From Chloroflexaceae bacterium (GTDB lineage: Bacteria > Chloroflexota > Chloroflexia > Chloroflexales > Chloroflexaceae), in contig JAAUTZ010000006.1 in the NCBI GenBank assembly GCA_012031225.1, positions 20,534-84,533 on the forward strand: a DNA stretch of 64,000 bases, in the 5' to 3' direction. Positions within the stretch are counted from its first letter, which is position 1. Every line of letters starts with the position of its first letter. The position numbers and the translations under genes were made by a program. The notes under the pieces were generated by a model, which did not search any database, was not told the DNA's origin, and worked only from the letters and a program-made list of their open reading frames with translations. Positions 19,901-33,833 of this stretch are shown here, one piece after another.

Positions 19901-20568
19901 GCGCAAAAGCCGGTGGACCCAACTACGTGCTGCAACTGCTACACTGGGATCAGGAAGGCGTGCCCGCCCAACAAGCCGTGCCCGCGCCCACCGTCCAATC
20001 GCTGCTGGTACGCTATCAGGCCCTGCTGCCCACCGCCCAACAGACGTTGCTACAGGCCAGTGCGGGCAGCTATGCCCACGCATGGGCCACCCATTTCAGC
20101 CAAGCCCATGACGTAACCGGGCTGTATTGCGAGGCGAACATCTTCCGCTACCGCCCGTGTCGCGGGGTGCTACTCCGTGCAACCACCCACACCGAACTGG
20201 TCAATATCTGTCAGGTAGCCCTTGCCGCCCGCACCGGCGGCGTGCCCCTCACGATCAGCTTGCCGCCCACCGCTCCGGCGGCGTGGCAACACCTCGCCGA
20301 AGCAGGCGCAGTTGAGGTCATCATTGAGGATGAAATGCTCCTTGTGACCCGCCTGCAAGAGGGCGGCAGCAGGGCCTATGAGCGGCTCCGCACGCCCGGC
20401 AGCCCATCGGCAGTGCTGCGCCGCGCCGCCCAATTCGCCAACCTTGCCGTGCTGGAGGGACCCGTGCTCGCAAATGGGCGGCTCGAACTCCGCACCTTCT
20501 TGCGCGAGCAGGCCATCTCGCAGACTTTGCACCGCTACGGCAACATCCTGCCCACCCCGCAAGCGTAA
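16981..20568 (+). CDS. putA: Bifunctional proline dehydrogenase / L-glutamate-gamma-semialdehyde dehydrogenase
   Basis: A 1,195-residue enzyme oxidising proline to glutamate in two steps. The N-terminal half is an FAD-dependent PRODH barrel (about residues 90-450, with KLSSVFSQINL, VLQAYLPDS and RIVKGANLAMEQ). The C-terminal half is an NAD-dependent aldehyde dehydrogenase: VIVITPPWNFPLAIPCGG, general base Glu764 in FAETSGKNS and nucleophile Cys798 in GHNGQKCSAAS. A tail of about 190 residues follows. There is no N-terminal ribbon-helix-helix domain, so it should not be an autorepressor like E. coli PutA. ATG 16981 is preferred over GTG 16972, because GGGAG sits nine bases before the ATG and abuts the GTG. 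A possible extended -10 (TGC then TACCAT) lies at 16903-16911. Confidence 0.95.
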   Translation: MTVVEPPVAPPPALDERELARRAVELAADLLHRANDLQTPQEYRQARKIARMMEDPNGKALTIALSDQVFRSHRHARIADQLEHLLRGYGVPTYMAQWEQGALWTGGALGKYLPDMVVPPFASRLRQETRSVILPGEERELRAYLKQRRATGTRLNLNQLGEAILGEGEARRRLDAYLTLLAREDVEYISVKLSSVFSQINLIAYDHTLTLVKERLRELYRTALQHTFRQPDGSRTPKFINLDMEEYRDLHFTVQAFREVLDEPEFTRLRAGLVLQAYLPDSFHVQQELTAWAQERVARGGAPIKIRIVKGANLAMEQVEAAMHDWPQAPYTSKLEVDANFKRMVVYGCNPAWVAAVNLGVASHNLFDIGYAILVREHYGVEAYVEFEMLEGMANHQSRAVQERAGGLLLYAPVVKEEDFHSAIAYLVRRLDENTAEENFLHDLFGLQPGTDTWEKQRKRFLVACELRDKVRTTPRRTQDRRLEEDAGEPDMPALREAPFRNVADTDWALPANQAWVRDILSRWRTRAPELIPLQIGGDLISTSYPGEGIDPSRPNVVAYRYALADHAQINRALDAAVQALADWSARPLAERRDLLIRAGYELQRNRGDLLGAMILDGGKAIPEADAEVSEAIDFANYYARTFDTLAEELHDCRSQPLGVIVITPPWNFPLAIPCGGVLAALIAGNTVILKPAPEATLVGWHLAQTLWAAGIPRAVLQFVPAPDNEIGQALVTDDRVGGVILTGSRATALMFQGWKPDLRLFAETSGKNSLIITGLADHDQAIKDLVRSAFGHNGQKCSAASLAVLEAEVYDSPAFRRQLADAAASLTVGSAWDPASKVTPLTQVPSDNLRRALTSLDTGETWLLEPHQIGDNPRLWSPGIKIGVQRGSFFHQTECFGPVLGLMRADDLAEAVELANDTHFGLTGGIHSLDDREIAYWQERVELGNAYINRHITGAIVQRQPFGGWKGSVFGPGAKAGGPNYVLQLLHWDQEGVPAQQAVPAPTVQSLLVRYQALLPTAQQTLLQASAGSYAHAWATHFSQAHDVTGLYCEANIFRYRPCRGVLLRATTHTELVNICQVALAARTGGVPLTISLPPTAPAAWQHLAEAGAVEVIIEDEMLLVTRLQEGGSRAYERLRTPGSPSAVLRRAAQFANLAVLEGPVLANGRLELRTFLREQAISQTLHRYGNILPTPQA

Positions 20569-20650
20569 GCACGCGGCGAGGGGATGAATGCCTTGTCAAT
20601 AGTCGTGTTTAATTGGTTTAAGCCTGTACCAGAAAGAGGTGTACCCACCC

Positions 20651-21400
20651 ATGACCCAAAAACTCACCGCGAGCGTTGCCCTGATCACGGGGGCATCATC
20701 CGGGATCGGAGCGGCCACTGCGCTTGCCCTCGCCGCAGAAGGAGCCGCCGTTGCGCTGCTGGCCCGCCGTGCCGAGCGGCTAGACACCCTCGCCGAACAG
20801 ATCAGCGCAGCAGGCGGCACCGCACTCGCAATCCCCACCGATGTCACCGACGAACGCCAAGCCCGTGCCGCCGTTCAGCAAACGTTCGAGACGTGGGGGT
20901 GCGTGGATATTCTCGTCAACAATGCGGGCGTAATGTACAACAGCCCGATTGATGGCGCAGATACTAACGAGTGGCGGCGCATGGTAGACCTGAATATTAT
21001 GGGCGTGCTGTATATGACCCACGCCACCCTACCGATTATGAAGCAGCAGCAGCGCGGGCACATCGTCAATGTATCTTCGGTGGCCGGGCGACTCGCCTTT
21101 GCCAATGCGGCCGTGTACAATGCCACCAAGTGGGGCGTGGTTGGCTTCTCCGAAGCGTTGCGGCAGGAATCGTTTGGGCACGGCATCCGCACCACCATCA
21201 TTGAACCGGGCCTCACTGAAACCGAGCTGTTCGATCACATCACCCACACCGCCACCCGCGAGGCCTTCCTGAAGCGCGTGCAGGCCATGCAATCCTTGCG
21301 CGGCGAAGATATTGCCAATGCGATCCTGTATGCCGTGACGCAGCCCGCGCACGTCAACGTGAATGAGATCCTGATCCGCCCGACGGGGCAGGATCGCTAG
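20651..21400 (+). CDS. SDR family NAD(P)-dependent oxidoreductase
   Basis: A 249-residue classical short-chain dehydrogenase. The cofactor motif TGASSGIG is at about residues 14-21, NNAG is at about 93-96, and the catalytic Ser (NVSSVAG) and YNATK follow. The sequence around LVNNAGVMYNSPI and GLTETELFDHI is closest to the YdfG/serine-dehydrogenase-like subgroup, but the substrate cannot be assigned. ATG 20651 has AGAGG about 11 bases upstream; a GTG at 20639 overlaps that site. It follows the proline oxidation gene by 82 bases. Confidence 0.92.
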   Translation: MTQKLTASVALITGASSGIGAATALALAAEGAAVALLARRAERLDTLAEQISAAGGTALAIPTDVTDERQARAAVQQTFETWGCVDILVNNAGVMYNSPIDGADTNEWRRMVDLNIMGVLYMTHATLPIMKQQQRGHIVNVSSVAGRLAFANAAVYNATKWGVVGFSEALRQESFGHGIRTTIIEPGLTETELFDHITHTATREAFLKRVQAMQSLRGEDIANAILYAVTQPAHVNVNEILIRPTGQDR

Positions 21401-21523
21401 GGCTTGCCCCTGACTCCCTGCCACCCGAAATACGGTATACTACGCATAGGCGCGGCTGCCATCTGCTGGGGCGCTCCCCCAATTCAGAATGGGTGGCCGT
21501 TTGTTGTGTATCAAGAGGAGCGC

Positions 21524-22465
21524 ATGAACCAGACAACCACATCCGCAACATCCCCCAAGCAAGCGCGTGCGCTGCACGAGTTTTTCCAATTTGAGTGTTC
21601 GCACCGCTACGCCCTTGCTGCACTCGGCGCGGCCACGCTCAGTGCGCTAGCCATTCGGGTAGGCGGGCTGCCTGCGGCGGCAGCCATTGCCGCAACGGGT
21701 GCAGCCGGTGTCGCCTACACCATCCTGATCGAACCGGCCATGCCCGTACTCGAACGCATCACGCTGCGGGTGCCCGATCTGCCGCCCGCCCTCGATGGGC
21801 TACGCATCGGGCAGCTCAGCGATCTGCATCTCGGCGTGCTGCACACCACTGCCAATACGCGCTGGGGCGTGCGCCAGATGCTCCGTGAACAGCCAGACCT
21901 GATCGTGATTACGGGTGATTTTGTGACCCTGCCGCAAGCCATCCCCACGATTGGCCCGCTGCTCCAGCCCTTGCACGCACCGCTCGGCATCTACGCCATC
22001 ACGGGCAACCATGATTACTGGGAAGGGGTGGCCGAGATTACCGCCGCAGTGACCCAGCTCGGCATCACCATGCTGTTCAACGAGAACCGCCGCCTGACGT
22101 GGCGGGGAGCCGACTTCTGGCTGGCTGGCACGGATGATATGTGGTATGGCGCACCCGATCTGGAGGCGACCCTCGCGGGCATTCCAGCCGGCGCACCGAC
22201 GATCCTGCTGGCCCACGAACCGGACTTCGCGGGCGAGGCGGCGCGGCGCGGCGTAACCGTGCAGCTATCGGGGCACACGCACGGCGGGCAGATCCGCCTG
22301 CCGCTGCTGGGCACGCTCTGCCTGCCGCGCATGGGGCTATACTTTGCGGGGGGCTACTTTGCGGTAGCAGGCATGCACCTGTACGTCTCACGCGGGCTAG
22401 GCGGCATACCGGTGCGCTTCAACTGTCGCCCCGAATCGGCCATCATCACCCTGCGGCAGGGCTAG
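21524..22465 (+). CDS. Membrane-anchored metallophosphoesterase
   Basis: A 313-residue calcineurin-like phosphoesterase of the YkuE/YaeI type. Residues about 25-75 contain two hydrophobic segments (YALAALGAATLSALAI, AAAIAATGAAGVAYTILI) that should anchor it. The metal-binding motifs then follow in order: SDLHLG, ITGDFV, ITGNHDYW, LAHEPDF and SGHTHGGQ. Relatives hydrolyse UDP-2,3-diacylglucosamine or similar phospholipid-linked phosphoesters; the actual substrate is unknown. ATG 21524 has AGAGGAG upstream. The TAG stop shares the palindrome CTAG with the stop of the convergent PII-like gene. Confidence 0.9.
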   Translation: MNQTTTSATSPKQARALHEFFQFECSHRYALAALGAATLSALAIRVGGLPAAAAIAATGAAGVAYTILIEPAMPVLERITLRVPDLPPALDGLRIGQLSDLHLGVLHTTANTRWGVRQMLREQPDLIVITGDFVTLPQAIPTIGPLLQPLHAPLGIYAITGNHDYWEGVAEITAAVTQLGITMLFNENRRLTWRGADFWLAGTDDMWYGAPDLEATLAGIPAGAPTILLAHEPDFAGEAARRGVTVQLSGHTHGGQIRLPLLGTLCLPRMGLYFAGGYFAVAGMHLYVSRGLGGIPVRFNCRPESAIITLRQG

Positions 22466-22758
22466 AGGAACTTTGTGCCGCGCACCACATCTACCAGCGT
22501 GCGGTAGACAATCACCGCAAAGTGCTCGAAGTAGGTATCTGAAAGCCGCTCCACAATGCGCTCGGCAACATCCGGTGCAACCAGCGTCTCAATCTTAACA
22601 TTGTTGCCCTGCCACGTACTGGCCCGGATGCCGCGGGTGCCCTCGCCGTAGACTTCCGTCAAGGTGAAGCCATTTGCGCCCGCCTTGCGAATATCATCAA
22701 GGATCCGTTCGCGCAGCACATGCTCCGTAATGATCGTCACCAGCATCAGCTGTTGCAT
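22462..22758 (-). CDS. PII-like signalling protein (SbtB/DUF190-type GlnB fold)
   Basis: A 98-residue small trimeric-type PII homologue. Recognisable segments are LMLVTIITEHVLRERILDDI, the G-rich stretch GANGFTLTEVYGEGTRGIR, NVKIETLVAPDVAERI and YFEHFAVIVYRTLVDVVRG. The order resembles SbtB-like carbon-sensing PII proteins more than GlnB/GlnK: there is no T-loop tyrosine motif (YRGAEY), so uridylylation is unlikely. ATG 22758 is nine bases from AGGAGG; ATG 22764 is too close to it. It stands alone, tail to tail with the phosphoesterase gene (4-base stop overlap), with no bicarbonate or ammonium transporter beside it. Ligand and partner are unknown. Confidence 0.8.
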   Translation of the reverse strand: MQQLMLVTIITEHVLRERILDDIRKAGANGFTLTEVYGEGTRGIRASTWQGNNVKIETLVAPDVAERIVERLSDTYFEHFAVIVYRTLVDVVRGTKFL

Positions 22759-22831
22759 TGGCATGCCCTCCTCATTGGCTCACAGCGGTGGGCGTACCCC
22801 CGCCTAATATCATTCTACCATGCTACCACGC

Positions 22832-22860
22832 TTGACGTTTTCCTCTGAGAATGCTACAAT
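22832..22860 (+). promoter_or_regulatory. Sigma-70 promoter of the lysine cluster
   Basis: The -35 is TTGACG (22832-22837), the spacer 17 bp and the -10 TACAAT (22855-22860), preceded by TGC, which makes an extended -10. Transcription should begin near 22867, leaving about 250 bases of leader before lysT. Confidence 0.8.
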
Positions 22861-22917
22861 CCCGAATTGGAACATAATATTACGTGTTATGTACGATTGT
22901 ACGTGAGCGATATACAC

Positions 22918-22983
22918 ATGATACCTACTCGCCTCAAGCAGAGCAAAAAACATTACCAAGCAGTGGATCCTGCTGGTCGGTAA
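22918..22983 (+). CDS. Candidate lysine-rich leader peptide (21 aa) of an attenuator
   Basis: A short frame ATG 22918 to TAA 22981-22983 encodes 21 residues: MIPTRLKQSKK, then HYQAVDPAGR. Three of its first 11 codons are Lys, two of them tandem AAA (22945-22950), which is what a leader peptide sensing Lys-tRNA supply should look like. The binding site is weak (GTGAG about 13 bases upstream). The stop lies 35 bases before the 5' arm of a terminator-like hairpin. Leader-peptide attenuation of lysine genes is, to my knowledge, reported for the homologous Thermus cluster. Assignment here is inference from position and codon content. Confidence 0.6.
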   Translation: MIPTRLKQSKKHYQAVDPAGR

Positions 22984-23048
22984 CCTGTGCCCTTGCGCGA
23001 GTTGATTTGGCTGACACGGCTCCACCAGACCTTGATCGGTGGAGCTTT
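22953..23048 (+). promoter_or_regulatory. Candidate attenuator: antiterminator and terminator hairpins
   Basis: Nested stems 22953-22957/22979-22983 and 22959-22963/22970-22974 overlap the end of the leader peptide. A perfect 8-bp stem 23019-23026/23038-23045 (GCTCCACC and complement, 11-base loop) followed by TTT is the terminator-like element. Bases 22963-22970 (GTGGATCC) can pair, with one mismatch, to 23018-23025 (GGCTCCAC), which would sequester the terminator's 5' arm. A ribosome stalled at the tandem Lys codons would leave 22963 onward free. The U tract is short, so termination may be partial. Confidence 0.55.
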
Positions 23049-23114
23049 GCTGTGTGTGCGCGTTAGGATGCACACTATCACAAACGCTACAAAGCAGAGA
23101 GAAGGAGCGTGTTC

Positions 23115-24365
23115 ATGCCGCAGACCCTTGCAGAACAGATCCTGAGCCACGCCGCCGGGCGCACCGTGCAAGCCGGTGAGGTTGTAACCGTGCGCGTAGA
23201 TCTGGCGATGATCCACGATAGCCTCGCGCCCGGCATCATCCGCCTGCTGCACGAAGATTTAGGAGCCGAGCGGGTGTGGGATGTAGATAAGGTCGCCGTC
23301 GTGATAGACCATGTCGCCCCCGCCGCAACCGTGCAGACGGCCACCCACCAAGCCAATACGCGCAAGTGGGTGCGCGAGCAGAATATTACCCACCTGTTCG
23401 ATGTGGGGCGCGGTATCTCGCATCAGGTATTGGTTGAAGAACGCCTCGCCCGGCCCGGCATGATCGTCGCTGGCAGCGATAGCCACAGCACCGGCTACGG
23501 CGCAGTTGGCGCATTTGGCACGGGCATGGGATCTACCGATATGGCCCTGATCCTCGCCACGGGACGCACATGGATGCGTGTGCCAGAGACGGTGCGCGTG
23601 CTGGCGCGTGGGCAGTTTCGGCCCGGCGTGAGTGCCAAAGACTTGGGCCTGTATGCCGCCCGCGTCCTCCGGGCCGATGGCGCAACCTATGCCTCGGTCG
23701 AGTGGCACGGCGTAGACTTCCTGAGTGTCGGGGATCGGATGACCCTCGCTACCCTCTCGATTGAAGTAGGCGGCAAGGCCGGCATCGTGCCGCCCACGGG
23801 CGCACCCGCCGCCGATTTGGACGTGCCCGCGTGGCTGCGCGTGGAAGACGGCCCAACCTACCTCCGCACCGTTGAGGTGGATCTGGATACGCTTGAGCCA
23901 CAGATCAGCATGCCACCCTTTGTAGATAACGTCGCCGACCTGCGCGATGTCGGCAAGGTCGCCGTAGATGTCGTCTATCTTGGGACGTGTACCAATGGTC
24001 GCTACGAAGATATGGCTGCCGCCGCGCAGATCCTACGGGGGCGCACCATCGCCAAAGGCACGCGCATGATCGTGGTTCCCGCCAGTAGCGAATCGCTCCA
24101 ACGCGCAACCAGCGATGGCACACTCACAACCCTGCTGGCTGCTGGCGCAACGATTGGCACGCCCGGCTGTGGCGCATGCATCGGGCGGCATATGGGCGTA
24201 CTCGCGCCGGGCGAGGTGTGTGTCTTCACCGGCAATCGCAATTTTCGCGGGCGCATGGGCAGCCCCGATGCCCAGATTTACCTGACCTCACCCGAAGTTG
24301 CCGCCGCCACCGCGCTGACTGGCTACATCACCCATCCGCAAGACGTGATGGCCGAAGGAGAATGA
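23115..24365 (+). CDS. lysT: Homoaconitase large subunit (lysine biosynthesis)
   Basis: A 416-residue aconitase-superfamily subunit; with LysU it converts homocitrate to homoisocitrate through an [4Fe-4S] cluster. The signature GSDSHSTGYGAVGAFGTGMG is present, and three candidate cluster cysteines lie in YLGTCTNGR and GTPGCGACIG. Length and small-subunit partner match the bacterial LeuC/LysT class. The homoaconitase rather than isopropylmalate assignment rests on the following lysine genes. ATG 23115 lies eight bases after GGAG; GTG 23109 is too close to it. It is the first structural gene behind the attenuator-like leader. Confidence 0.88.
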   Translation: MPQTLAEQILSHAAGRTVQAGEVVTVRVDLAMIHDSLAPGIIRLLHEDLGAERVWDVDKVAVVIDHVAPAATVQTATHQANTRKWVREQNITHLFDVGRGISHQVLVEERLARPGMIVAGSDSHSTGYGAVGAFGTGMGSTDMALILATGRTWMRVPETVRVLARGQFRPGVSAKDLGLYAARVLRADGATYASVEWHGVDFLSVGDRMTLATLSIEVGGKAGIVPPTGAPAADLDVPAWLRVEDGPTYLRTVEVDLDTLEPQISMPPFVDNVADLRDVGKVAVDVVYLGTCTNGRYEDMAAAAQILRGRTIAKGTRMIVVPASSESLQRATSDGTLTTLLAAGATIGTPGCGACIGRHMGVLAPGEVCVFTGNRNFRGRMGSPDAQIYLTSPEVAAATALTGYITHPQDVMAEGE

Positions 24366-24369
24366 TTAT

Positions 24370-24870
24370 ATGGCTCGCATCTGGAAATTTGGCAGCGATG
24401 TGAATACCGATCAGATTGTACCCGGACGGTATGCCCCCTACATGCTCAAGAACGAAGACGACCTGCGTAAGTACCCCTTTGTCGAAGCCCGCCCCGACTT
24501 CGCCCCGAATGTACAGCCCGGCGATATTCTGGTGGGCGGCAACAACTTCGGCTGCGGCAGTTCCCGCGAGTACGCCCCACTTGCGCTCAAGATGGTAGGC
24601 GTGGGGGCAATCATTGCGCCCCTGTTTGCGCGGATTTTCTTTCGCAATGCGCTGAACTTGGGCATTCCCCTGTTCACCGTTGACCTGACCGAGCAGCTAC
24701 AAGATGGACAACAGGTGCAGCTTGATCTTGCAACAGGCTTGCTCACCACCGATCCGGGCGAGCAGATCCAGCTCCCGGAGCCATCCCTGTTTATGCGCGA
24801 GGTGTGGCAAGCAGGCGGGATCGTGCCCTTCTATCGCCAGTATGGCCGCTTTCCGGGCGAAGCCGCGTAG
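24370..24870 (+). CDS. lysU: Homoaconitase small subunit
   Basis: A 166-residue swivelling domain protein completing the homoaconitase heterodimer. It opens with WKFGSDVNTDQIVPGRY, has the signature GGNNFGCGSSREYAP and the segment VGAIIAPLFARIFFRNALN typical of the LeuD/LysU family. ATG 24370 is four bases after the lysT stop, with GGAG inside the end of lysT, so the two are translationally linked. It is separated by 74 bases from the homoisocitrate dehydrogenase gene. Confidence 0.9.
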   Translation: MARIWKFGSDVNTDQIVPGRYAPYMLKNEDDLRKYPFVEARPDFAPNVQPGDILVGGNNFGCGSSREYAPLALKMVGVGAIIAPLFARIFFRNALNLGIPLFTVDLTEQLQDGQQVQLDLATGLLTTDPGEQIQLPEPSLFMREVWQAGGIVPFYRQYGRFPGEAA

Positions 24871-24944
24871 GGCAAGGGTATAGGCAGTTACGCCGTGGGT
24901 ACGCACGCTCCTCAGAGCGGTAACGGAACAGGGAGGCGATAGCG

Positions 24945-25982
24945 GTGCAGATTTGCATCATTGCAGGAGACGGGATCGGCGGCGAAGTGCTGGATGCCGC
25001 CGCACAGGTGTTGCGCCAGCTTGGGCCAGAGCTGACGCTGGTGTATGCCGAAGCGGGCTGGCAGACCTTTCAGGAGCATGGCGAGGCCCTGCCCGATGTC
25101 ACTTTGCGCCTCGCCCAACAATCGGATGCAGTGCTGTTCGGTGCATCCGGCTCGCCTAGCTTCCCCGTGCCCGGCTACCGTAGCCCCATCGTTGCGCTAC
25201 GGAAGGCGTTGGATGTCTACGCCAATATCCGCCCTACCCGCAGCCCCGCCGGTACTGTGCCTGCCGTTGATCTGGTGGTGGTGCGCGAGAATACCGAAGA
25301 TGTCTACGCCGGCCGCGAGCGCATCGAAGATGATGGCGACACCGTGATTACTGAGCGCGTCGTGACCCGCCGCGCCAGCACCCGCATCGCACGGGCGGCG
25401 GCTGAGCTGGCCCGCCAGCGGGCCGCAACCCGCCCCACCCGCCGGGCGCGGGTGACGGTGGTGCATAAAGCCAACGTGATCCGCGAGGGCGATGGACTGT
25501 TCCGGCGCACCGCACTGGAAGTGCTTGCCGCCTACCCCGAACTGGACGCAGACGAGCTGCTCGCCGATGTTGCGGCCATGCGGATCGCCCAGTCGCCCGC
25601 CCGCTTCGATGTGCTGGTGACAACCAACCTCTTCGGCGATATTCTCTCAGACATTGCCTGCATTCACGGCGGCGGCTTGGGCTTGGCCAGCAGTGCCAGC
25701 ATCGGTGATCGGTATGCCCTCTTCGAGCCGGTACACGGCTCTGCGCCGGATATTGCCGGCAAAGGCATCGCCAATCCTATCGCCGCACTTGATTGTGTGG
25801 CCATGTTGTATGATTGGCTGGATGGGCGCGGCTATCCACAGGCAAGCCAGCACGCGCACAAGCTGCGGGCGGCCCTTACCACGATCCTGCGCGAGGGTCC
25901 GCACACGCCCGATTTAGGCGGCACCGCCACCACGCAGGCTGTGACGGCCCGAGTGCTGGCGTTGGTGACAGGTGACAGGTGA
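24945..25982 (+). CDS. Homoisocitrate dehydrogenase
   Basis: A 345-residue NAD(P)-dependent beta-decarboxylating dehydrogenase of the isocitrate/isopropylmalate/homoisocitrate family, predicted to give 2-oxoadipate from homoisocitrate. Motifs: [10 protein letters not shown] at the N-terminus, [28 protein letters not shown] (catalytic Lys), [15 protein letters not shown] (metal-binding Asp) and [19 protein letters not shown]. The start is GTG 24945, after AGGGAGG. The last coding residues (TGDR) and the TGA stop lie within three tandem copies of a 7-base repeat, which extend past the gene, so the natural C-terminus has been overwritten by repeat sequence. Confidence 0.88.
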
Positions 25983-25988
25983 CAGGGT
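25964..25988 (+). repeat. Heptamer repeat across the homoisocitrate dehydrogenase stop codon
   Basis: Three tandem copies of GGTGACA (complement TGTCACC, a form of the ACCTGNC heptamer seen elsewhere in the window). The array encodes the last residues and supplies the stop codon. Confidence 0.75.
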
Positions 25989-26101
25989 AGATCGGAACGT
26001 AGGCACGGCGTTGAGTGATCGAGGACCGGAGCGTTTGTCCATCCGAATAATGAGGGGCGGCTGCCCCATGTGCAAGCATATACCAGAAGGAGATCAATAG
26101 C

Positions 26102-26269
26102 ATGCAAGCCGAATGTCCCGAATGCGGTGCAATGATCGAACTGCCGGAAGGCACAGTCGAGGGTGAGATTATCGTCTGTGGCGATTGTGGAGCCGAGCTA
26201 GAAGTTGTCTCGCTCGATCCGCCGACGTTGGTCCTTGCGCCCGAAGTGGGCGAAGATTGGGGAGAATAA
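26102..26269 (+). CDS. lysW: LysW amino-group carrier protein
   Basis: A 55-residue acidic protein. LysW carries alpha-aminoadipate (or glutamate) on its C-terminal glutamate through the later steps of the pathway. Two CxxC pairs (CPEC at 5-8, CGDC at 26-29) form a zinc knuckle, the middle is Glu-rich, and the C-terminus is exactly EDWGE, the motif whose last Glu is modified. ATG 26102 has AAGGAG upstream. The stop is three bases before lysX, its cognate ligase gene. Confidence 0.96.
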   Translation: MQAECPECGAMIELPEGTVEGEIIVCGDCGAELEVVSLDPPTLVLAPEVGEDWGE

Positions 26270-26272
26270 ACC

Positions 26273-27160
26273 ATGCGGATCGGTGTCTTGCTATCGCGGG
26301 TGCGCGTCGAGGAAAAGCTGCTGCTGGCCGAACTAGAGCGGCACGGCGCAGGCTATACGCTCCTCGATGATCGGGAGTTGGTCTTTGACCTAAACGCGGG
26401 CACGTATGCCTTCGATGTCATTCTGGAGCGTTCGATCCACCACTCGCGGGCCCTCTACGCGCTCAAAGCCTTCAATGACCGCGACGTGCCCACCGTCAAT
26501 ACCTACCACGTCGCCCGCATCTGTGGCGACAAGGTGCTGACTACCCAAGCCCTGATCAAGCACGACGTACCGACCCCGCGCACCCGCATGGCCTTCACCG
26601 CCGAGTCGGCATTGGCGGCAATTGAGGAGCTAGGCTACCCAGCCGTCCTCAAGCCCGCGATTGGCTCGTGGGGGCGGCTGATCGCCAAAGTCAATGACCG
26701 CGAAGCCGCCGAAGCCTTGCTCGAACACAAGGAGATTCTCGGCTCGTATCACCACTCGATCTTCTACATTCAGGAGTATGTCAAGAAGCCCAACGGGCGC
26801 GACATTCGTTCGTTTGTCGTGGGCGATACCTGCATCTGTGCGATCTATCGCACCAGCGGACACTGGATCACCAACACCGCCCGCGGCGGCGCAGCGAGCA
26901 ACTGCCCGGTCACCCCGGAACTAGCCCAGATTTCGGTGGCGGCGGCGCAGGCAGTCGGTGGCGGGGTACTCGCGGTAGATGTGTTTGAGACTGACGACGG
27001 GCAGCTGCTCGTCAACGAAGTCAACTATACGATGGAGTTTCGCAATAGCATTGACACAACGGGCGTAAACATTCCGGCGTTGGTGATTGAGTATGTGCTC
27101 GCGGTAGGACATGGCGCGATTGTGCCGCACAACGGGCGGTGGACGATGAGTGACGACTAG
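26273..27160 (+). CDS. lysX: Alpha-aminoadipate--LysW ligase (ATP-grasp)
   Basis: A 295-residue RimK-type ATP-grasp ligase that attaches the amino group of alpha-aminoadipate to the C-terminal Glu of LysW. ATP-grasp features are the Lys in [16 protein letters not shown], the segment [20 protein letters not shown], and the metal-binding end [19 protein letters not shown]. That last stretch resembles Thermus LysX, which supports an aminoadipate rather than purely glutamate-specific role; dual use for arginine cannot be excluded. ATG 26273 lies three bases after the lysW stop, so translation is coupled. Confidence 0.93.
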
Positions 27161-27175
27161 CACGAGGGGAGCAAG

Positions 27176-28213
27176 ATGAGCATGCGTGTGGCGATAGTCG
27201 GGGGGAGTGGCTATGTAGGCGGCGAACTTGCCCGCCTGCTGCTGGCTCATCCGCACGTCGAGTTGGTGCAGATCACATCGGAGCGGCTGGTGGGCAAGCC
27301 GATTGGCAGCACTCACCCCAACCTGCGCGGGCACACCAGCTTGCAGTATGTATCAGCGCGGGGGGTGGAGCCGTGCGATCTGCTCTTTCTGGCGATGGCG
27401 CACGGCGAAGCCGCCAAACAGATTGACCACTATGCCAACCTTGCGCCCAAGATCATTGATTGCTCGGCCGATTTCCGCCTGTCCGATCCCGCTACCTATG
27501 AGCAGTGGTATGGCGAAGCCCACCCCGCCCCGCACTGGCTCGATAGGTTTGTGTATGGCTTGCCCGAAGTCAACCGCGAGGCGATCCGCAGCGCACGCTA
27601 CGTCAGTGGGGTAGGCTGCAATGCCACCGCCACCAACTTTGCGCTGTTGCCCCTAGTGCGAGCGGGTATGCTCGATCCACAGGCTGACGTGATTGTCGAG
27701 GTCAAGGTTGGCTCATCGGAGGGCGGCGCACAGTCCAGCGACTCCTCGCACCACCCAGAGCGGAGCGGCGTAGTGCGGGCATTCGCCCCGACGGGCCACC
27801 GCCACACCGCAGAGGTGATGCAGATCACCGGGCTGCAACGGGTCCACCTCTCGATCACGAGCGTGGAACTCGTGCGGGGCGCAGTGGCTACCGCGCATGT
27901 GTTCCCGCGTGAGCCGCTCGATGAGAAAGCCCTGTGGCAGCTGTTCCGGGCCGTCTACAGCAGCGAGCCGTTTGTCCGCATCGTGCGTGAGCGCACGGGG
28001 ATGCACCGCCTGCCAGAGCCGAAGCTGCTCTCTGGCACGAACTTCGTAGACGTGGGCTTTGCCACCGATCCGCAGACGGGGCGCGTCGTGACGATTGCCG
28101 CGCTCGACAACTTGATGAAGGGTGCAGCAGGCACGGCGGTGCAGTGTATGAACCTGATGTGGGGCTTCGATGAGCAGGATGGGCTAGCCTTCGTGGGCTT
28201 GCATCCGCTGTAA
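27176..28213 (+). CDS. lysY: [LysW]-L-2-aminoadipate 6-phosphate reductase
   Basis: A 345-residue ArgC-family NADPH reductase that turns the LysW-bound acyl phosphate into the semialdehyde. The Rossmann opening is VAIVGGSGYVGGELARLL, and the active-site Cys sits in SGVGCNATATNFALLPL. The long GSSEGGAQSSDSSHHPERSG loop and GHRHTAE are ArgC/LysY-like. ATG 27176 has GGGGAG four bases upstream; a second ATG at 27182 has better spacing, so the start is uncertain by two residues. It follows lysX by 15 bases. Confidence 0.93.
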   Translation: MSMRVAIVGGSGYVGGELARLLLAHPHVELVQITSERLVGKPIGSTHPNLRGHTSLQYVSARGVEPCDLLFLAMAHGEAAKQIDHYANLAPKIIDCSADFRLSDPATYEQWYGEAHPAPHWLDRFVYGLPEVNREAIRSARYVSGVGCNATATNFALLPLVRAGMLDPQADVIVEVKVGSSEGGAQSSDSSHHPERSGVVRAFAPTGHRHTAEVMQITGLQRVHLSITSVELVRGAVATAHVFPREPLDEKALWQLFRAVYSSEPFVRIVRERTGMHRLPEPKLLSGTNFVDVGFATDPQTGRVVTIAALDNLMKGAAGTAVQCMNLMWGFDEQDGLAFVGLHPL

Positions 28214-28302: not shown

Positions 28303-29835
28303 ATGCAAGCACACGCCGCTGAGATGCCCGCCTTTCTGGTGGATGAGAACCCAGCGCACAAACAGTTTTTCCAAGCCCGCGATCTGTTCAACCTGATCGG
28401 CTACCTCCAGCAGCATGGCTTCGGCGTGTTCAGCATCCGCGAATCGTTGCAAGCCGTGAGCCGCTGCCGCGACGGGACGCTACAGGGCTTCTTTCTGAGC
28501 CAAGCGCAGGCGTGGGAGGCAATCCGCATGATGAATGCCCTCGGCGTGGGGGTCGTCGAGTTGCCGGCCTACCCGATGAACCAGCCCGGCCAAGAGCAGA
28601 ACCAGTGGCTGATTGCCCAAGCCCAGCAGCACGATCTCCAGATCGAGTTTGCCGCGCACGCCCGCTGTGTCGAGCTAGACATCTACGCCGCGTATCAGGC
28701 CGGCTTCCGGCGCGTGCATCTCTACATCGGCACGAGCAAGATCAAGCAGGCCACAGCGGGCGCAAGCATCACCCGCATGGCCGAGAAAGCCTTCGAGAGC
28801 ATTGCCCTTGCGCGGAGCTTGGGCTACACGAGCGTCCGCATCAGCACCGAAGATGCCTTCCGTACCACGCTCGATGACTACGCTGAGTTCTTCACCCAGC
28901 TCCAACACCTGCTCGCCCAGCACGATCTGCGCGTGAATGGGATTGGCATTCCTGATACGGTGGGGGTTTCGACCCAAGAGGAGCTTGGCGAGCGGATCAG
29001 CATTCTGCAACAGGTGGGCATCCCGTTTGATTTCCTCGAATGCCACATCCATAACGATGTGGGCAATGCCGATCAGATTTATGTCAACACGCTGATGGTC
29101 TGTATGCGCTTGGGCATCACCATGCTGCCCGACTTCTCGATCTTGGGGATTGGTGAGCGCAACGGCACGATTGGCTTAAGCTCGCTGCTAGAGAGCATCT
29201 ACCGCCGCCTGATCCAGCTTTACCCCCGCAAGATGCCCCAGATCCGGGCGGCAGTGCGCGATCAGCTTGGTATGCTCCCCACCGGCGAACTCTTCGTGAA
29301 TGCCTACAATACCGCCGATAGCTACTTCTACAACCTGCTCTCGCGCAACGGGTTTGTGTTTGACCGTAGCCCGTTCTCATCCAACACCGAGTATGACGGC
29401 AGTGGCGTACACGCCGATACCACGATGCGGGCCTATCAGCTTGCCCTCGCCGAAGGACGGCACGGGCAAGCCGCCATAGACATCGGCAATAGTGCCTACT
29501 GCGGCGCACTGCCCCTGTACGACATGAGCCTACGCACGCCTGTGCTGGCGTGTTTTGGCTGCGGCAAAAGCAACGTGCGCTTTTGGCGCGAACAGGCCCA
29601 GCTGGTGCGCCGCCCGACGCAGGCTGTCCTCGCCAGTGTCGAACGGCTACAGGCCCAGCTCGGCCCAGATGGAGCCTTCGCGCCGGAGCAGGCGCAGGAC
29701 GACAACGCCCTCGATGAGTACATCGCCCGTGCAATCCGCTTCCTAAGTGTGCAGCATAGCGGGATGACCCATCAAGAGGCGATGGAACTGGTTGAGCTGT
29801 TCTATCAGCCGCAGTCCCCCAAGAGCGGGGGTTAG
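28303..29835 (+). CDS. Divergent homocitrate-synthase-like protein (DRE-TIM/HMGL-like)
   Basis: A 510-residue protein of the pyruvate-carboxyltransferase-like TIM-barrel family. Seen: an N-terminal extension of about 50 residues, then RCRDGTLQGFF (variant of the RDGxQ motif), HIHNDVGNAD (HxH metal ligands) and GIGERNGTIGLSSLLESIY (equivalent of GERAGN). This family condenses or cleaves acetyl-CoA with 2-oxo acids. The only lysine-pathway step otherwise missing from the cluster is homocitrate synthase, so that is the likely role. It is longer and more divergent than typical 370-400 residue homocitrate synthases. The Cys-rich FGCGKSNVRFW region near residue 425 and the C-terminal part are not familiar. 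ATG 28303 follows GGAAGGA. Confidence 0.65.
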   Translation: MQAHAAEMPAFLVDENPAHKQFFQARDLFNLIGYLQQHGFGVFSIRESLQAVSRCRDGTLQGFFLSQAQAWEAIRMMNALGVGVVELPAYPMNQPGQEQNQWLIAQAQQHDLQIEFAAHARCVELDIYAAYQAGFRRVHLYIGTSKIKQATAGASITRMAEKAFESIALARSLGYTSVRISTEDAFRTTLDDYAEFFTQLQHLLAQHDLRVNGIGIPDTVGVSTQEELGERISILQQVGIPFDFLECHIHNDVGNADQIYVNTLMVCMRLGITMLPDFSILGIGERNGTIGLSSLLESIYRRLIQLYPRKMPQIRAAVRDQLGMLPTGELFVNAYNTADSYFYNLLSRNGFVFDRSPFSSNTEYDGSGVHADTTMRAYQLALAEGRHGQAAIDIGNSAYCGALPLYDMSLRTPVLACFGCGKSNVRFWREQAQLVRRPTQAVLASVERLQAQLGPDGAFAPEQAQDDNALDEYIARAIRFLSVQHSGMTHQEAMELVELFYQPQSPKSGG

Positions 29836-29856: not shown

Positions 29857-30657
29857 ATGCTCGTGGTCAAAGTCGGCGGAAGCAAAGGCATCAATTACGA
29901 CATGCTGTGCCGCGATCTGGCGATGCTGGCGCAGGGCGGCAAACGGATTGTGCTGGTGCATGGCGGCTCCGATGAAACCAACCAGCTCTCGGAGGCATTG
30001 GGCCATCCGCCGCGTTTTGTCACTTCCGTATCGGGGCATACCAGCCGCTACACGGATCGGCGCACGCTGGAACTGTTTATGATGGCCACCGGCAAAATCA
30101 ATGCAGTTCTCGTGGAGCAACTGCAACGGCAAGGCGCAAACGCACTCGGCTTGCGCGGCTTGGATGGCCGCCTGCTGAGTGGCAAGCGCAAAGCGATGAT
30201 CCGCATTATCGAGGATGGCAAGCAAAAGATCGTGCGCGACGACTGGACCGGCACGGTTGAGCAGGTTAACACGGGCTTGCTCTCGCTGCTGCTCAAAGAG
30301 GGCTACCTGCCCGTGATTGCCCCGATTGCAGGCAGCTTTGATGGTGAAGCGATCAACGTAGACGGCGACCGCGCCGCGGCAGCAATTGCCGCTGCACTCG
30401 GCGCAGAGACGCTGCTGCTGTTGACGAACGTGCCCGGCTTGCTGCGCCACTTCCCCGACGAAAGCAGCCTGATCAGCCACATCCCCCGCGCCGAGATAGA
30501 CGACTACCTGCCGCTGGCTGAGGGGCGCATGAAGAAGAAAGTGCTGGGCGCATCGGAAGCCCTGATGGGCGGCGTGGGGCGGGTCATCTTGGGCGATGCC
30601 CGCCGCCCGACCCCCGTGAGCGATGCCCTTGCGGGGGCCGGCACGGTGATTGGCTAG
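29857..30657 (+). CDS. lysZ: [LysW]-aminoadipate/glutamate kinase
   Basis: A 266-residue amino-acid kinase of the ArgB/LysZ type that phosphorylates the side-chain carboxylate of LysW-bound aminoadipate. It opens MLVVKVGGSKG (phosphate-binding Lys and Gly) and has LVHGGSDETNQLSEALG, SGHTSRYTDRRTLELF and INVDGDRAAAAIAAALGA. LysZ-like features are the GHTSRYTDR segment and the RMKKKVLGA ending. ATG 29857 follows AAAGGAG, 22 bases after the homocitrate-synthase-like gene. Its end overlaps or abuts the start of the next gene. Confidence 0.93.
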   Translation: MLVVKVGGSKGINYDMLCRDLAMLAQGGKRIVLVHGGSDETNQLSEALGHPPRFVTSVSGHTSRYTDRRTLELFMMATGKINAVLVEQLQRQGANALGLRGLDGRLLSGKRKAMIRIIEDGKQKIVRDDWTGTVEQVNTGLLSLLLKEGYLPVIAPIAGSFDGEAINVDGDRAAAAIAAALGAETLLLLTNVPGLLRHFPDESSLISHIPRAEIDDYLPLAEGRMKKKVLGASEALMGGVGRVILGDARRPTPVSDALAGAGTVIG

Positions 30658-30658
30658 C

Positions 30659-31294
30659 GTGCAGAGCAGCGCACCTACGCCTGCCGTCTGCCGGATTGCG
30701 GTGCTGTATGATGGCGCGTACCTTGCCGCCGTGCAGGCATACTACACCCAATGCGGGCACGGGCAGCTTGCCTTGCAGCCGTTGCACCACTTGTTGGAAC
30801 AGGCGGTGCAGCACGCCGAAAAGGGGTACAATAGTTATCGGATCATCTTTGCAGGCTGGTATGCTGGTAGCAACGATGGCGATCCGAGCCTGCTGCCGCC
30901 GCAGCACGAGCTACTGCTCGCCGGAATTACAGCGCGGTGGGTGCTGCTCGATCCTGCCGCACCTACCGATCAGCGCGGCGTAGCCGTAACGCTGGCCAGC
31001 GATGCACTGGAACTAGCCTTGAGCGGGCGCGTAGATGTGGTGGTGCTGGTTGCAACGGGAGCCTATCTCGCTGAGCTAGCCCGCACGCTCACGCGGCAGG
31101 GCGTGCGCGTATTGCTGGCCCATGCTACGCCGCGTGAGCAACTCGCCACCACGCTGCTGGATCGCCGCCTGCGCGATGCGTGTAGCTACGTGGTCAATGT
31201 TGCCCAATTTGAACACGCCGCCGAACGCCACTGGCAGGCACTTTTTCAGGGGCTATTCCGCCCCCCGCACGAGATGCAGGAGCAAGCCGAATGA
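30659..31294 (+). CDS. NYN/LabA-like domain protein in the lysine operon
   Basis: A 211-residue protein from GTG 30659 (TTG 30650, inside lysZ, is also in frame). It opens like a NYN/PIN-like nuclease of the LabA/DUF88 type: IAVLYDGAYLAAVQAYY, where the Asp is the usual first catalytic acid. A later strand reads DVVVLVATGAYLAELARTLTRQGVRVLL, the position of the canonical SGDSDF motif, here ATGAYL, so the second acidic cluster is missing. It may therefore bind RNA without cutting. There is no clear ribosome binding site of its own; its stop overlaps the lysJ start (ATGA, 4 bases), so it is firmly within the operon. No link between such proteins and lysine synthesis is known to me. Confidence 0.6.
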   Translation: MQSSAPTPAVCRIAVLYDGAYLAAVQAYYTQCGHGQLALQPLHHLLEQAVQHAEKGYNSYRIIFAGWYAGSNDGDPSLLPPQHELLLAGITARWVLLDPAAPTDQRGVAVTLASDALELALSGRVDVVVLVATGAYLAELARTLTRQGVRVLLAHATPREQLATTLLDRRLRDACSYVVNVAQFEHAAERHWQALFQGLFRPPHEMQEQAE

Positions 31295-32493
31295 CGTTAA
31301 CGTTGCCTGAATTGACAACCCAACCCCGCACCAATGCGGACATTATCGCCACCGAGCAGGCCCACACCAGCGGCGTGTATCCCAAACGCGACGTTGCGCT
31401 TGTGCGTGGGCTAGGGGCGCAGGTGTGGGATGCTGACGGCGTGGAGTATCTCGACTGCACCAGCGCACAGGGCGCAGCCAATCTGGGGCACTGCCACCCA
31501 GCAGTGGTGGCGGCTCTCCATGAGCAGGCGCAGATCCTCATCAGCTGCCCCGAAATCTTCCCCAACGACCAACGCGCCGCCTATCAGCAGGCTCTTGTGG
31601 CTGCCCTACCGAGTGGCATGGCGCGGGTGTTTCTGTGCAATTCAGGCGCAGAAGCCATCGAGGGCGCATTGAAATTTGCGCGCCTGCTCACTGGGCGCAC
31701 CGGCACTGTGGCCACCAAACGCGGCTTTCACGGGCGCACGATGGGCGCACTCTCGACGACGTGGGAGCCAAAGTACCGCGAGCCATTCGCGCCCCTGATC
31801 GCCGATGTAACCCACGTTGCCTACAACAATCTGGATGAGCTAGACCGCGCCGTGCACGCAACCACCGCTGCCGTGCTGATCGAACTCGTGCAGGGCGAAG
31901 GCGGCGTGCGGCCTGCCGATCCCGCCTATGTGCAGGGCGTGGCTGCGCTGTGCCGTGAGCGCGGCGCACTGCTGATCGTGGATGAGGTGCAGACCGGCTT
32001 CGGGCGCACTGGGCGGCTGTGGGCATGCGATCACTACGGCATCACGCCCGACCTGATCACCCTCGCCAAATCTATTGCGGGCGGCGTGCCAATGGGGGCT
32101 ATCGGCATACACGCCCGCTTCGGCACGCTGCAACCTGCTATGCACGGCACCACCTTCGGCGGCAATCCGCTCGGCTGTGCTGTGGCGCGGGCAGTGCTGC
32201 ACGAACTGACCACGACTGATCTGTTATGTCAAGCGACACTGAAGGGCGAGTACCTGCTTGGCAAGCTACGCGCACTCACATCACCGAAGATCCGCGAGGT
32301 GCGCGGCATGGGCTTGATCGTCGGGCTAGAGCTGAAGGAGCGCGTGCAGCCCTACCTGATCCGCCTGCTCGAAGAACAGCGCGTGCTAGCCCTGCCCGCC
32401 GGGCCAACTGTGCTCCGCCTGCTGCCGCCGCTCGTGATCGAGTACGCCCAGCTTGACCGTGCCGTCGCTGCGGTTGCCGCCGTGCTTGAATAG
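31291..32493 (+). CDS. lysJ: [LysW]-aminoadipate semialdehyde transaminase
   Basis: A 400-residue class III PLP aminotransferase of the ArgD/LysJ family, giving LysW-lysine from the semialdehyde with glutamate as donor. Motifs: [16 protein letters not shown] (phosphate binding), [25 protein letters not shown] (Asp binding the pyridine N) and [13 protein letters not shown] with the Schiff-base Lys. The length is typical. The start codon overlaps the preceding NYN-like gene by four bases. It is followed by 254 bases containing an inverted pair of 9-mer repeat arrays before lysK. Confidence 0.93.
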
Positions 32494-32747: not shown

Positions 32748-33833
32748 ATGTCGAATCCCGCTGACTTCGATCCGGTTGCGTTTCTGGAGCAATTTGTCCG
32801 CATCGAGAGCTACTCTGGCGAGGAGCAAGCCGTCGCCCGCTTTCTCGTCGCCACGCTGCACCAACTGGGCTTTGCCGCCGATATTGACGGTGCGGGCAAT
32901 GTGGTTGCTACCGCCTGCGCCCGCGCCGCCGATGACCCAACCGCGCCAATCATCCTGCTAGGGCACATAGATACCGTCGCGGGGATAGTACCCGTGCGCC
33001 GCGAACAGGGGCGGCTGTATGGGCGCGGCACGGTGGATGCCAAAGGCGCGTTTGCCACCTTTGTCGCCGCCGCCGCCAAACGGCGCGCCAGTGGCAACTT
33101 CCGTGCGCCATTGATCCTCGTGGGGGCGGTTGAAGAAGAGGCGGCCTCATCCAAAGGGGCGCACTTCATCCTTGACCGTTACGCGCCTGCCGCCTGCATC
33201 ATCGGCGAGCCGAGCGGCTGGGAGCGGCTGACACTCGGCTATAAGGGGCGGCTCCTGCTCGATGGGCACTGGCACACCGCTAGCGCACACAGCGCAGGGC
33301 AAGCCACGCCCGCCGCCGAGCAAGCCGTAGCCTACTGGCAAGCCGTGCAGGCCTACTGCGCCAGCTTCAATGCCGACAAGCCGCGCCTGTTTGACCAGCT
33401 GCTGCCCTCGCTGCGGGCGATCAATACCACCAGCGACGGCTTGCACGATGAAGCCACCCTCACCATTGGGCTACGCCTGCCGCCCAAGCTCGACCCGACT
33501 CACCTGATCGAGACGCTGTGCGGCTTGCTCCCCGATGATGCCCCCGCCACGCTTGCCTTTCGCGGCGGCTGCTTTGCCTATCAAGGCGACAAAAACAACC
33601 CGCTCGTGCGGGCTATGCTCAAAGGTATTCGGGCCCACGGCGGCACGCCCGGCTTCCTGCTCAAAACCGGCACCTCCGATATGAATGTCGTTGGGCCGGT
33701 GTGGCAATGCCCGATCCTTGCCTACGGGCCCGGCGACTCCGCGCTTGACCATACGCCCGATGAGCATATCCCGATCAGCGAGTACCTGCGAGCGATTGAG
33801 GTGCTGAGTACCGCCCTGCACGAGCTGTGCTAG
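32748..33833 (+). CDS. lysK: [LysW]-lysine/ornithine hydrolase
   Basis: A 361-residue M20-family zinc hydrolase that releases lysine from LysW. Motifs: the opening FLEQFVRIESYSGEEQAVARF, LLGHIDTVAG (zinc His and catalytic Asp), GRGTVDAKGAFATFV (bridging Asp) and GAVEEEAASSKGA (catalytic Glu pair). The sequence is LysK/ArgE-like rather than DapE-like. ATG 32748 follows AAGGAG. It is the last gene of the cluster; the 254-base repeat-bearing gap upstream means it may have separate expression from the rest. Confidence 0.92.
   Translation: MSNPADFDPVAFLEQFVRIESYSGEEQAVARFLVATLHQLGFAADIDGAGNVVATACARAADDPTAPIILLGHIDTVAGIVPVRREQGRLYGRGTVDAKGAFATFVAAAAKRRASGNFRAPLILVGAVEEEAASSKGAHFILDRYAPAACIIGEPSGWERLTLGYKGRLLLDGHWHTASAHSAGQATPAAEQAVAYWQAVQAYCASFNADKPRLFDQLLPSLRAINTTSDGLHDEATLTIGLRLPPKLDPTHLIETLCGLLPDDAPATLAFRGGCFAYQGDKNNPLVRAMLKGIRAHGGTPGFLLKTGTSDMNVVGPVWQCPILAYGPGDSALDHTPDEHIPISEYLRAIEVLSTALHELC

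Follow-up and report, generated by a model that had tools for sequence, protein, structure and literature searches.

How is transcription of the LysW lysine cluster in a Chloroflexaceae bacterium adjusted to lysine? The question is raised by a 64,000-nucleotide stretch of its DNA (hereafter the window, whose positions are used throughout), in which a small lysine-rich ORF and a terminator-like hairpin lie in front of the cluster on the forward strand. Leader-peptide attenuation is a classical mechanism, and Tsubouchi and colleagues are said to have described it in 2005 for the LysW lysine cluster of Thermus thermophilus. Our analysis leads us to consider it highly probable that the leader in the window is a ribosome-mediated transcription attenuator that couples the cluster to charged tRNA-Lys.

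A lysine-rich leader precedes the LysW cluster

The leader begins with a promoter (22832–22860) composed of TTGACG (22832–22837), a 17-bp spacer and TACAAT (22855–22860), which matches the consensus at 10 of 12 positions and carries an extended TG. The 21-codon ORF MIPTRLKQSKKHYQAVDPAGR, which has homologous leaders in relatives, extends from the ATG at 22918 to the TAA at 22983 and is preceded by a weak Shine-Dalgarno sequence. Within this ORF, the Lys codon AAG (22936–22938) is part of a KQSKK motif that corresponds to the KQxKxxKK kept in relatives, whereas the proposed stall site, as read from the sequence, comprises the tandem Lys codons AAA AAA (22945–22950). The tail of the leader, GCTGGTCGGTAA (22972–22983), is the counterpart of GGTCTGGTTAG in the family, which spans the stop codon. 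Further downstream, a hairpin of nine pairs including one G-U is followed by TTT (23018–23048, –16.8 kcal/mol) and contains a perfect 8-bp core formed by GCTCCACC (23019–23026) and GGTGGAGC (23038–23045). The U-run of this putative terminator is weak and short (TTT at 23046–23048, within TTTGCTG). Promoter, ORF, the Lys codons at 22936, 22945 and 22948, and the hairpin with its TTT all lie where a preliminary description of the window had located them.

The first gene under control of the leader would be lysT, encoding the homoaconitase large subunit (23115–24365; NF001614, TIGR01343), the N-terminus of which (MPQTL) is common to the window and the sister genome G001. On the same strand follow lysU for the homoaconitase small subunit (24370–24870; NF010629 above cut-off), a gene resembling that of homoisocitrate dehydrogenase (HICDH-like, 24945–25982; TIGR02088 below cut-off), the carrier protein gene lysW with the C-terminal EVGEDWGE (26102–26269), lysX (26273–27160; TIGR02144 above cut-off) and lysY for an ArgC-like reductase (27176–28213; TIGR01850). 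The cluster continues with lysZ for the LysW-aminoadipate kinase (29857–30657; NF010659 above cut-off), the aminotransferase gene lysJ (31291–32493; TIGR00707 above cut-off, the LysJ model NF042418 below its own) and lysK for the LysW-lysine hydrolase (32748–33833; NF003367 above cut-off). Between lysZ and lysJ there is also a gene for an NYN-domain protein, a putative nuclease (30650–31294). Inside the cluster, the gene at 28303–29835 encodes a divergent HMGL-like synthase of 510 amino acids, the best match of which to the usual homocitrate synthase has an E value of 5e-8. The usual enzyme was not found in the window genome, its sister or family f4, and the HMGL-like protein is probably its replacement. 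Lysine synthesis by the LysW route fits with the absence of DapB, which was not found in the 12 order genomes tested.

Taken by itself, the window is modestly unusual. The folding of the leader region reaches z = –1.3 in the single-window test, and promoter and terminator scans of the window return values near expectation. At least three Lys codons within 20 codons have a probability of 0.008 given the local Lys frequency of 2.1%, and the antiterminator duplex of the window alone is not significant (p = 0.24). It is conservation that puts the element far beyond chance.

The leader is conserved across the order

In G001, the one further genome of the genus covered by the search, the LysT protein is 97% identical to that of the window. 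At the DNA level, identity is 97% in the leader ORF and in the stretch from leader to hairpin, 100% in the hairpin with its TTT and 93% in the promoter, compared with 62% in the 5' UTR, 82% in the spacer after the terminator and 67% at four-fold sites of lysT. The high identity of leader and hairpin beside the low identity of silent sites therefore indicates strong purifying selection on both.

A strong match to LysT, full or partial, is present in 56 of the 61 genomes of the first search. In family f4 (G042, G048, G051, G054, G056 and G060), a leader of the form M..KQ[VA]K[QR]SK[KQ]PDxxSG-stop adjoins lysT in the same arrangement as in the window, whereas homocitrate synthase heads the operon in most other genomes of the order and has the leader directly on its 5' side. 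Thus, the element tracks the first gene of the pathway rather than any one gene. Two matches to a CRISPR repeat (RF01356) are also seen in G042, about 1.2–1.4 kb upstream of lysT (L014, positions 70–93 and 308–331).

Overall, 47 genomes of the order, with that of the window counted among them, encode a Lys-rich peptide, typically KQxKRxKKPxxRSG-stop, directly 5' of the first lysine gene, and lysine makes up 18.9% of leader residues as opposed to 2.1% in the genes of the window. A conserved promoter, TTGAC[AG]-17-TAnnnT, is predicted upstream of all 47 leader ORFs with a spacing of exactly 17 bp; its mean score is 10.26 out of 12, compared with 5.3 in shuffled DNA. Of the 47, 46 have a terminator hairpin followed by a U-rich tail. 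Lys codons and pairings, whose loss in relatives would by the preliminary description have spoken against an attenuator, are conserved in the sister species and the 47 order genomes. In seven genomes (L051, L055, L060 and L084–L087), which include members of g10, the genus of Chloroflexus islandicus, the –10 box ends only 9–10 nt 5' of the leader ATG, which would make these ORFs nearly leaderless.

A second conserved small ORF (..TPRxxRPELFG[SA]CQVR.., or ..RPELFTGC.. in f3) is observed in L051–L090, where it lies between the attenuator and homocitrate synthase and overlaps or abuts the start of the latter; neither the window nor f4 has this ORF.

Peptide constraint at the leader front, RNA constraint at its end

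In an alignment of 31 sequences, 7 of the 12 pairs of the terminator stem show double-sided changes, with 41 doubly changed cells compared with 12.4 in shuffles (reached in 0 of 500), and 92% of cells are paired as opposed to 46% or less when the strands are slid. For the antiterminator, formed by GGTCTGGT and ACCAGACC, the share of paired cells is 94.6%, compared with 39% or less when slid. Compensated changes occur at two of its pairs, and covariation is weak because the strand hardly varies; covariation in the terminator stem is strong. Individually, the antiterminator duplex reaches p ≤ 0.05 in 29 of the 47 genomes; genus g20 of f3 relies on a different pairing sequence, GGCAGCGAG with CTCGCCGCC.

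In the wider family, it is the last part of the leader ORF, GGTCTGG-TTAG, that forms the conserved antiterminator strand, and this strand runs across the stop codon. The window sequence at 22963–22975 is a diverged version of this strand. The preliminary description had 22963–22970 pair with the 5' arm of the terminator, which is essentially right for the window, where seven of the eight positions pair and one is mismatched, but the antiterminator here has diverged from that of the family.

Codon comparison of 29 ungapped core leaders separates two kinds of constraint. KK is present in 25 of the 29, the first Lys exchanging AAA and AAG, and variation in the codons for Lys, Gln and Pro is concentrated at the third position; at codon –9, for example, AAG occurs 17 times and AAA 10 times. 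Towards the end of the ORF, Ser is encoded by TCT in 25 of the 25 genomes that have Ser, although TCT makes up 3.9% of the Ser codons of neighbouring genes. Gly is encoded by GGT in 28 of 29, compared with 20% of usage. NGG accounts for 27 of the 29 codons at position –4, and all 29 have G as their last base, whereas the amino acid encoded there varies between R, W, M and G. These patterns indicate selection on the RNA at the leader end and on the peptide at its front; pairing of the last codons (TCT GGT stop) with the 5' side of the terminator explains why their RNA sequence is frozen. This combination is what ribosome-mediated attenuation requires. The leader may be translated: the codon-position pattern, with the third-position variation that a translated peptide would show, supports coding, although the Shine-Dalgarno sequence is weak.

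A ribosome-dependent switch is predicted in the nascent RNA

When RNA of the window is folded up to a point before the 3' arm of the terminator, two structures compete. A protector hairpin (22950–22988; 22950–22966 with 22970–22988, –12.1 kcal/mol), termed 1:2, forms its inner pairs with a probability of about 0.6. The antiterminator pairs 22963–22967 with 23021–23025 and is extended by pairing of 22972–22975 with 23017–23020; its 5' strand (22963–22975) is kept in G001, and its 3' strand (23017–23025) overlaps the 5' arm of the terminator. The probability of the antiterminator is 0.04 without a ribosome, where the protector hairpin competes with it, and 0.97–0.99 with a ribosome on the Lys codons (bases to 22959 or 22962 blocked). 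This switch score is reached by 6 of 400 shuffles of 22951–23016. Once the 3' arm has been made, equilibrium folding favours the terminator in all states of the window, with a probability of about 1 whether or not a ribosome is stalled, and mostly also in relatives (mean 0.81). The switch must therefore be kinetic and operate during transcription. Comparison of masked and unmasked folds, as the preliminary description had suggested, accordingly reveals a switch from 0.04 to 0.98 in nascent RNA but none at equilibrium. Together with the order-wide occurrence of the element and its conserved pairings, the ribosome dependence of the nascent fold supports the attenuator interpretation that had been put forward.

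In the mechanism that we propose, RNA polymerase would start about 50 nt 5' of 22918 and a ribosome would begin the leader peptide. When lysyl-tRNA is scarce, the ribosome would stall on the Lys codons (22936–22950) and open the 22950–22966/22970–22988 hairpin, such that 22963–22975 becomes free to pair with the emerging 23017–23025. Formation of the terminator (23018–23046) would thereby be delayed and transcription would continue into lysT and onward. When lysine is plentiful, the ribosome would reach the stop codon and cover the antiterminator strand, and the terminator would form. The same outcome is expected if no translation takes place, since the 1:2 hairpin would then hide the antiterminator strand.

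Alternative explanations

The reading that survives best besides our own accepts the attenuator family as genuine but regards the copy in the window as decayed, leaving a constitutive or weakly regulated leader. We consider this unlikely. The short U-run, the divergence of the antiterminator from GGTCTGG:CCAGACC, the stability of the terminator in every equilibrium state and a covariance-model score of 39 bits, compared with 76–124 for most order members, would all be explained by decay. However, G001 has kept leader and hairpin almost intact despite a divergence of one third at silent sites, and a ribosome-dependent switch is still predicted in the nascent RNA of the window.

Considerably less probable is that the hairpin does not terminate at all, and that the leader acts instead on translation, by coupling to or masking the start of lysT, or through its peptide in trans. 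Trans-acting leader peptides exist, as described in PMC7298713, and the poor U-run in the window would suit such a role, but the hairpins of relatives are strong and have long U-runs. Moreover, the hairpin ends about 50 nt upstream of the lysT Shine-Dalgarno sequence AGAAGGAG, which is left uncovered, and it is the RNA of the leader tail that is constrained, not its peptide.

That the leader RNA binds a ligand or tRNA, as a T-box or lysine riboswitch would, appears most improbable: such RNAs control lysine genes elsewhere, but the leader has a conserved coding pattern and no long structured aptamer, and the lack of Rfam matches (nothing up to E = 1 in 20000–27000, and no leader-RNA family in six relatives) speaks against them. 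Finally, a chance small ORF next to the unrelated terminator of a neighbouring gene would be in keeping with the weak single-window statistics, but is hardly credible because the upstream P-II-like gene (22462–22764) is transcribed away from the leader, so that the hairpin is not its terminator, and because the element is conserved order-wide.

Distribution beyond the order

A covariance model trained on 31 rows, the window sequence among them, finds matches in 70 of 158 genomes of the class, 67 of which are among the 82 genomes of the order. Many order genomes outside the training set match with E values of about 1e-17 to 1e-25, and G001, also outside it, with 2e-5. The model does not detect the f3 genus g20, whose leaders can nevertheless be recognised by eye. 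When the order was scanned with a pattern, the known leaders were accompanied by scattered matches at the level of the reversed-pattern control.

An exact-pattern scan with AARAARCCNGNNNNNNGGTCTGGTTAG of 84,980 species, one genome per species, gives 30 matches, 28 of which are Lys leaders. These are found in Chloroflexus islandicus, Candidatus Chloroploca asiatica, Oscillochloris, Roseiflexus and Kouleothrix, as well as on contigs labelled Anaerolinea, Anaerolineae or Chloroflexi, and nearly all lie immediately 5' of homocitrate synthase or lysT. The L199 leader precedes an HMGL-like synthase and that of L200 a LysW-like ORF, while the leaders of L197 and L180 are cut by sequence ends. The two remaining matches, L179 and L182, lack the conserved hairpin and are false positives. 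A Lys leader with homocitrate synthase is also seen on a contig titled Candidatus Gracilibacteria (L190); this looks the same as a 4025-base contig of G017, a member of the family of the window, and the title is therefore probably wrong.

Probable reuse of the module for other amino acids

Weaker matches of the model revealed Arg-rich leaders 5' of argG in 19 genomes. These leaders end in ..LRFRRRTQPDDPSG, ..QQKRRRQRRPQPATRPG or ..LRHRFRRQPAMRPG, each before a stop codon, carry clusters of Arg, and share the xG-stop tail, the terminator and the complementary strand with the Lys version. Loci of this type are L133, L134, L136, L139, L142, L143 and L164, with upstream regions L205–L222. The argG of the window genome itself (L203) has a tRNA gene upstream instead, as judged by eye, and in G236, which lies outside the class, it is argC that follows a leader containing Arg. 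The common tail of Arg-rich leaders before argG suggests that the attenuator module has probably been reused for other amino acids.

Genes of the LysE family have leaders of two kinds. In genus g21, the leader is Lys-rich and stands at the head of an operon encoding a LysE-family protein, a PLP enzyme, LysW and LysX (Lys-rich loci L151, L152 and L159–L162), whereas Gln-rich leaders with the same tail are found at LysE-family genes elsewhere (L137, L144, L145, L148, L149, L163, L169 and L170). We lean slightly towards the view that all of these represent an ancient, exchangeable Chloroflexota chassis, in which the Ser-Gly-stop codons of a short and in some cases nearly leaderless ORF would double as antiterminator and only the regulatory codons would be swapped. 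Lys codons would serve lysine operons and the LysE-family gene heading the LysW operon, Arg codons would serve argG and perhaps argC, and Gln-rich versions would stand before other LysE-family transporters.

Relation to known systems and implications

The overall arrangement of the window, with promoter, leader ORF carrying regulatory codons, protector hairpin, antiterminator and terminator in this order, is that of the E. coli trp, his and leu attenuators, where the position of the ribosome decides the outcome, as it would here. Unlike in E. coli, the leader stop codon forms part of the antiterminator strand, the leader ORFs of several relatives are nearly leaderless, and one tail is common to the Lys and Arg versions. 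The reported attenuator of Thermus thermophilus lys shares with the window the pathway, the Lys codons of the leader and attenuation upstream of the cluster, but belongs to a different phylum. Lysine riboswitches and T-boxes likewise control bacterial lysine genes in cis, whereas the predicted sensor here is a translated ORF, unmatched in Rfam, in which no family of this kind is listed.

Leader peptides with alternative hairpins have also been derived from comparative genomics, both for attenuators predicted to control amino-acid operons of Actinobacteria (PMC1262725) and for His attenuators of Firmicutes (PMC9413887), which concern other amino acids and other phyla. No attenuator of Chloroflexota was found in those parts of the literature that were covered, and the broad survey of Lopatovskaya et al. 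2010 (Mol Biol 44:128, cited in PMC4833913) may already contain a prediction of this kind. Attenuation itself is known, and the newest aspect is the reusable Lys/Arg chassis.

For Chloroflexota, including cultured genera such as Chloroflexus, the leader provides a testable mechanism of amino-acid control. One attenuator design has been kept across the order and into contigs labelled Anaerolineae, and it has apparently been retuned from lysine to arginine by codon change. From it, regulation of lysine as well as arginine genes can be predicted in many uncultured genomes, and the leaders suggest which transporters of the LysE family tie to lysine metabolism. In the bacterium of the window, the switch most likely turns lysine production on when lysine is short.
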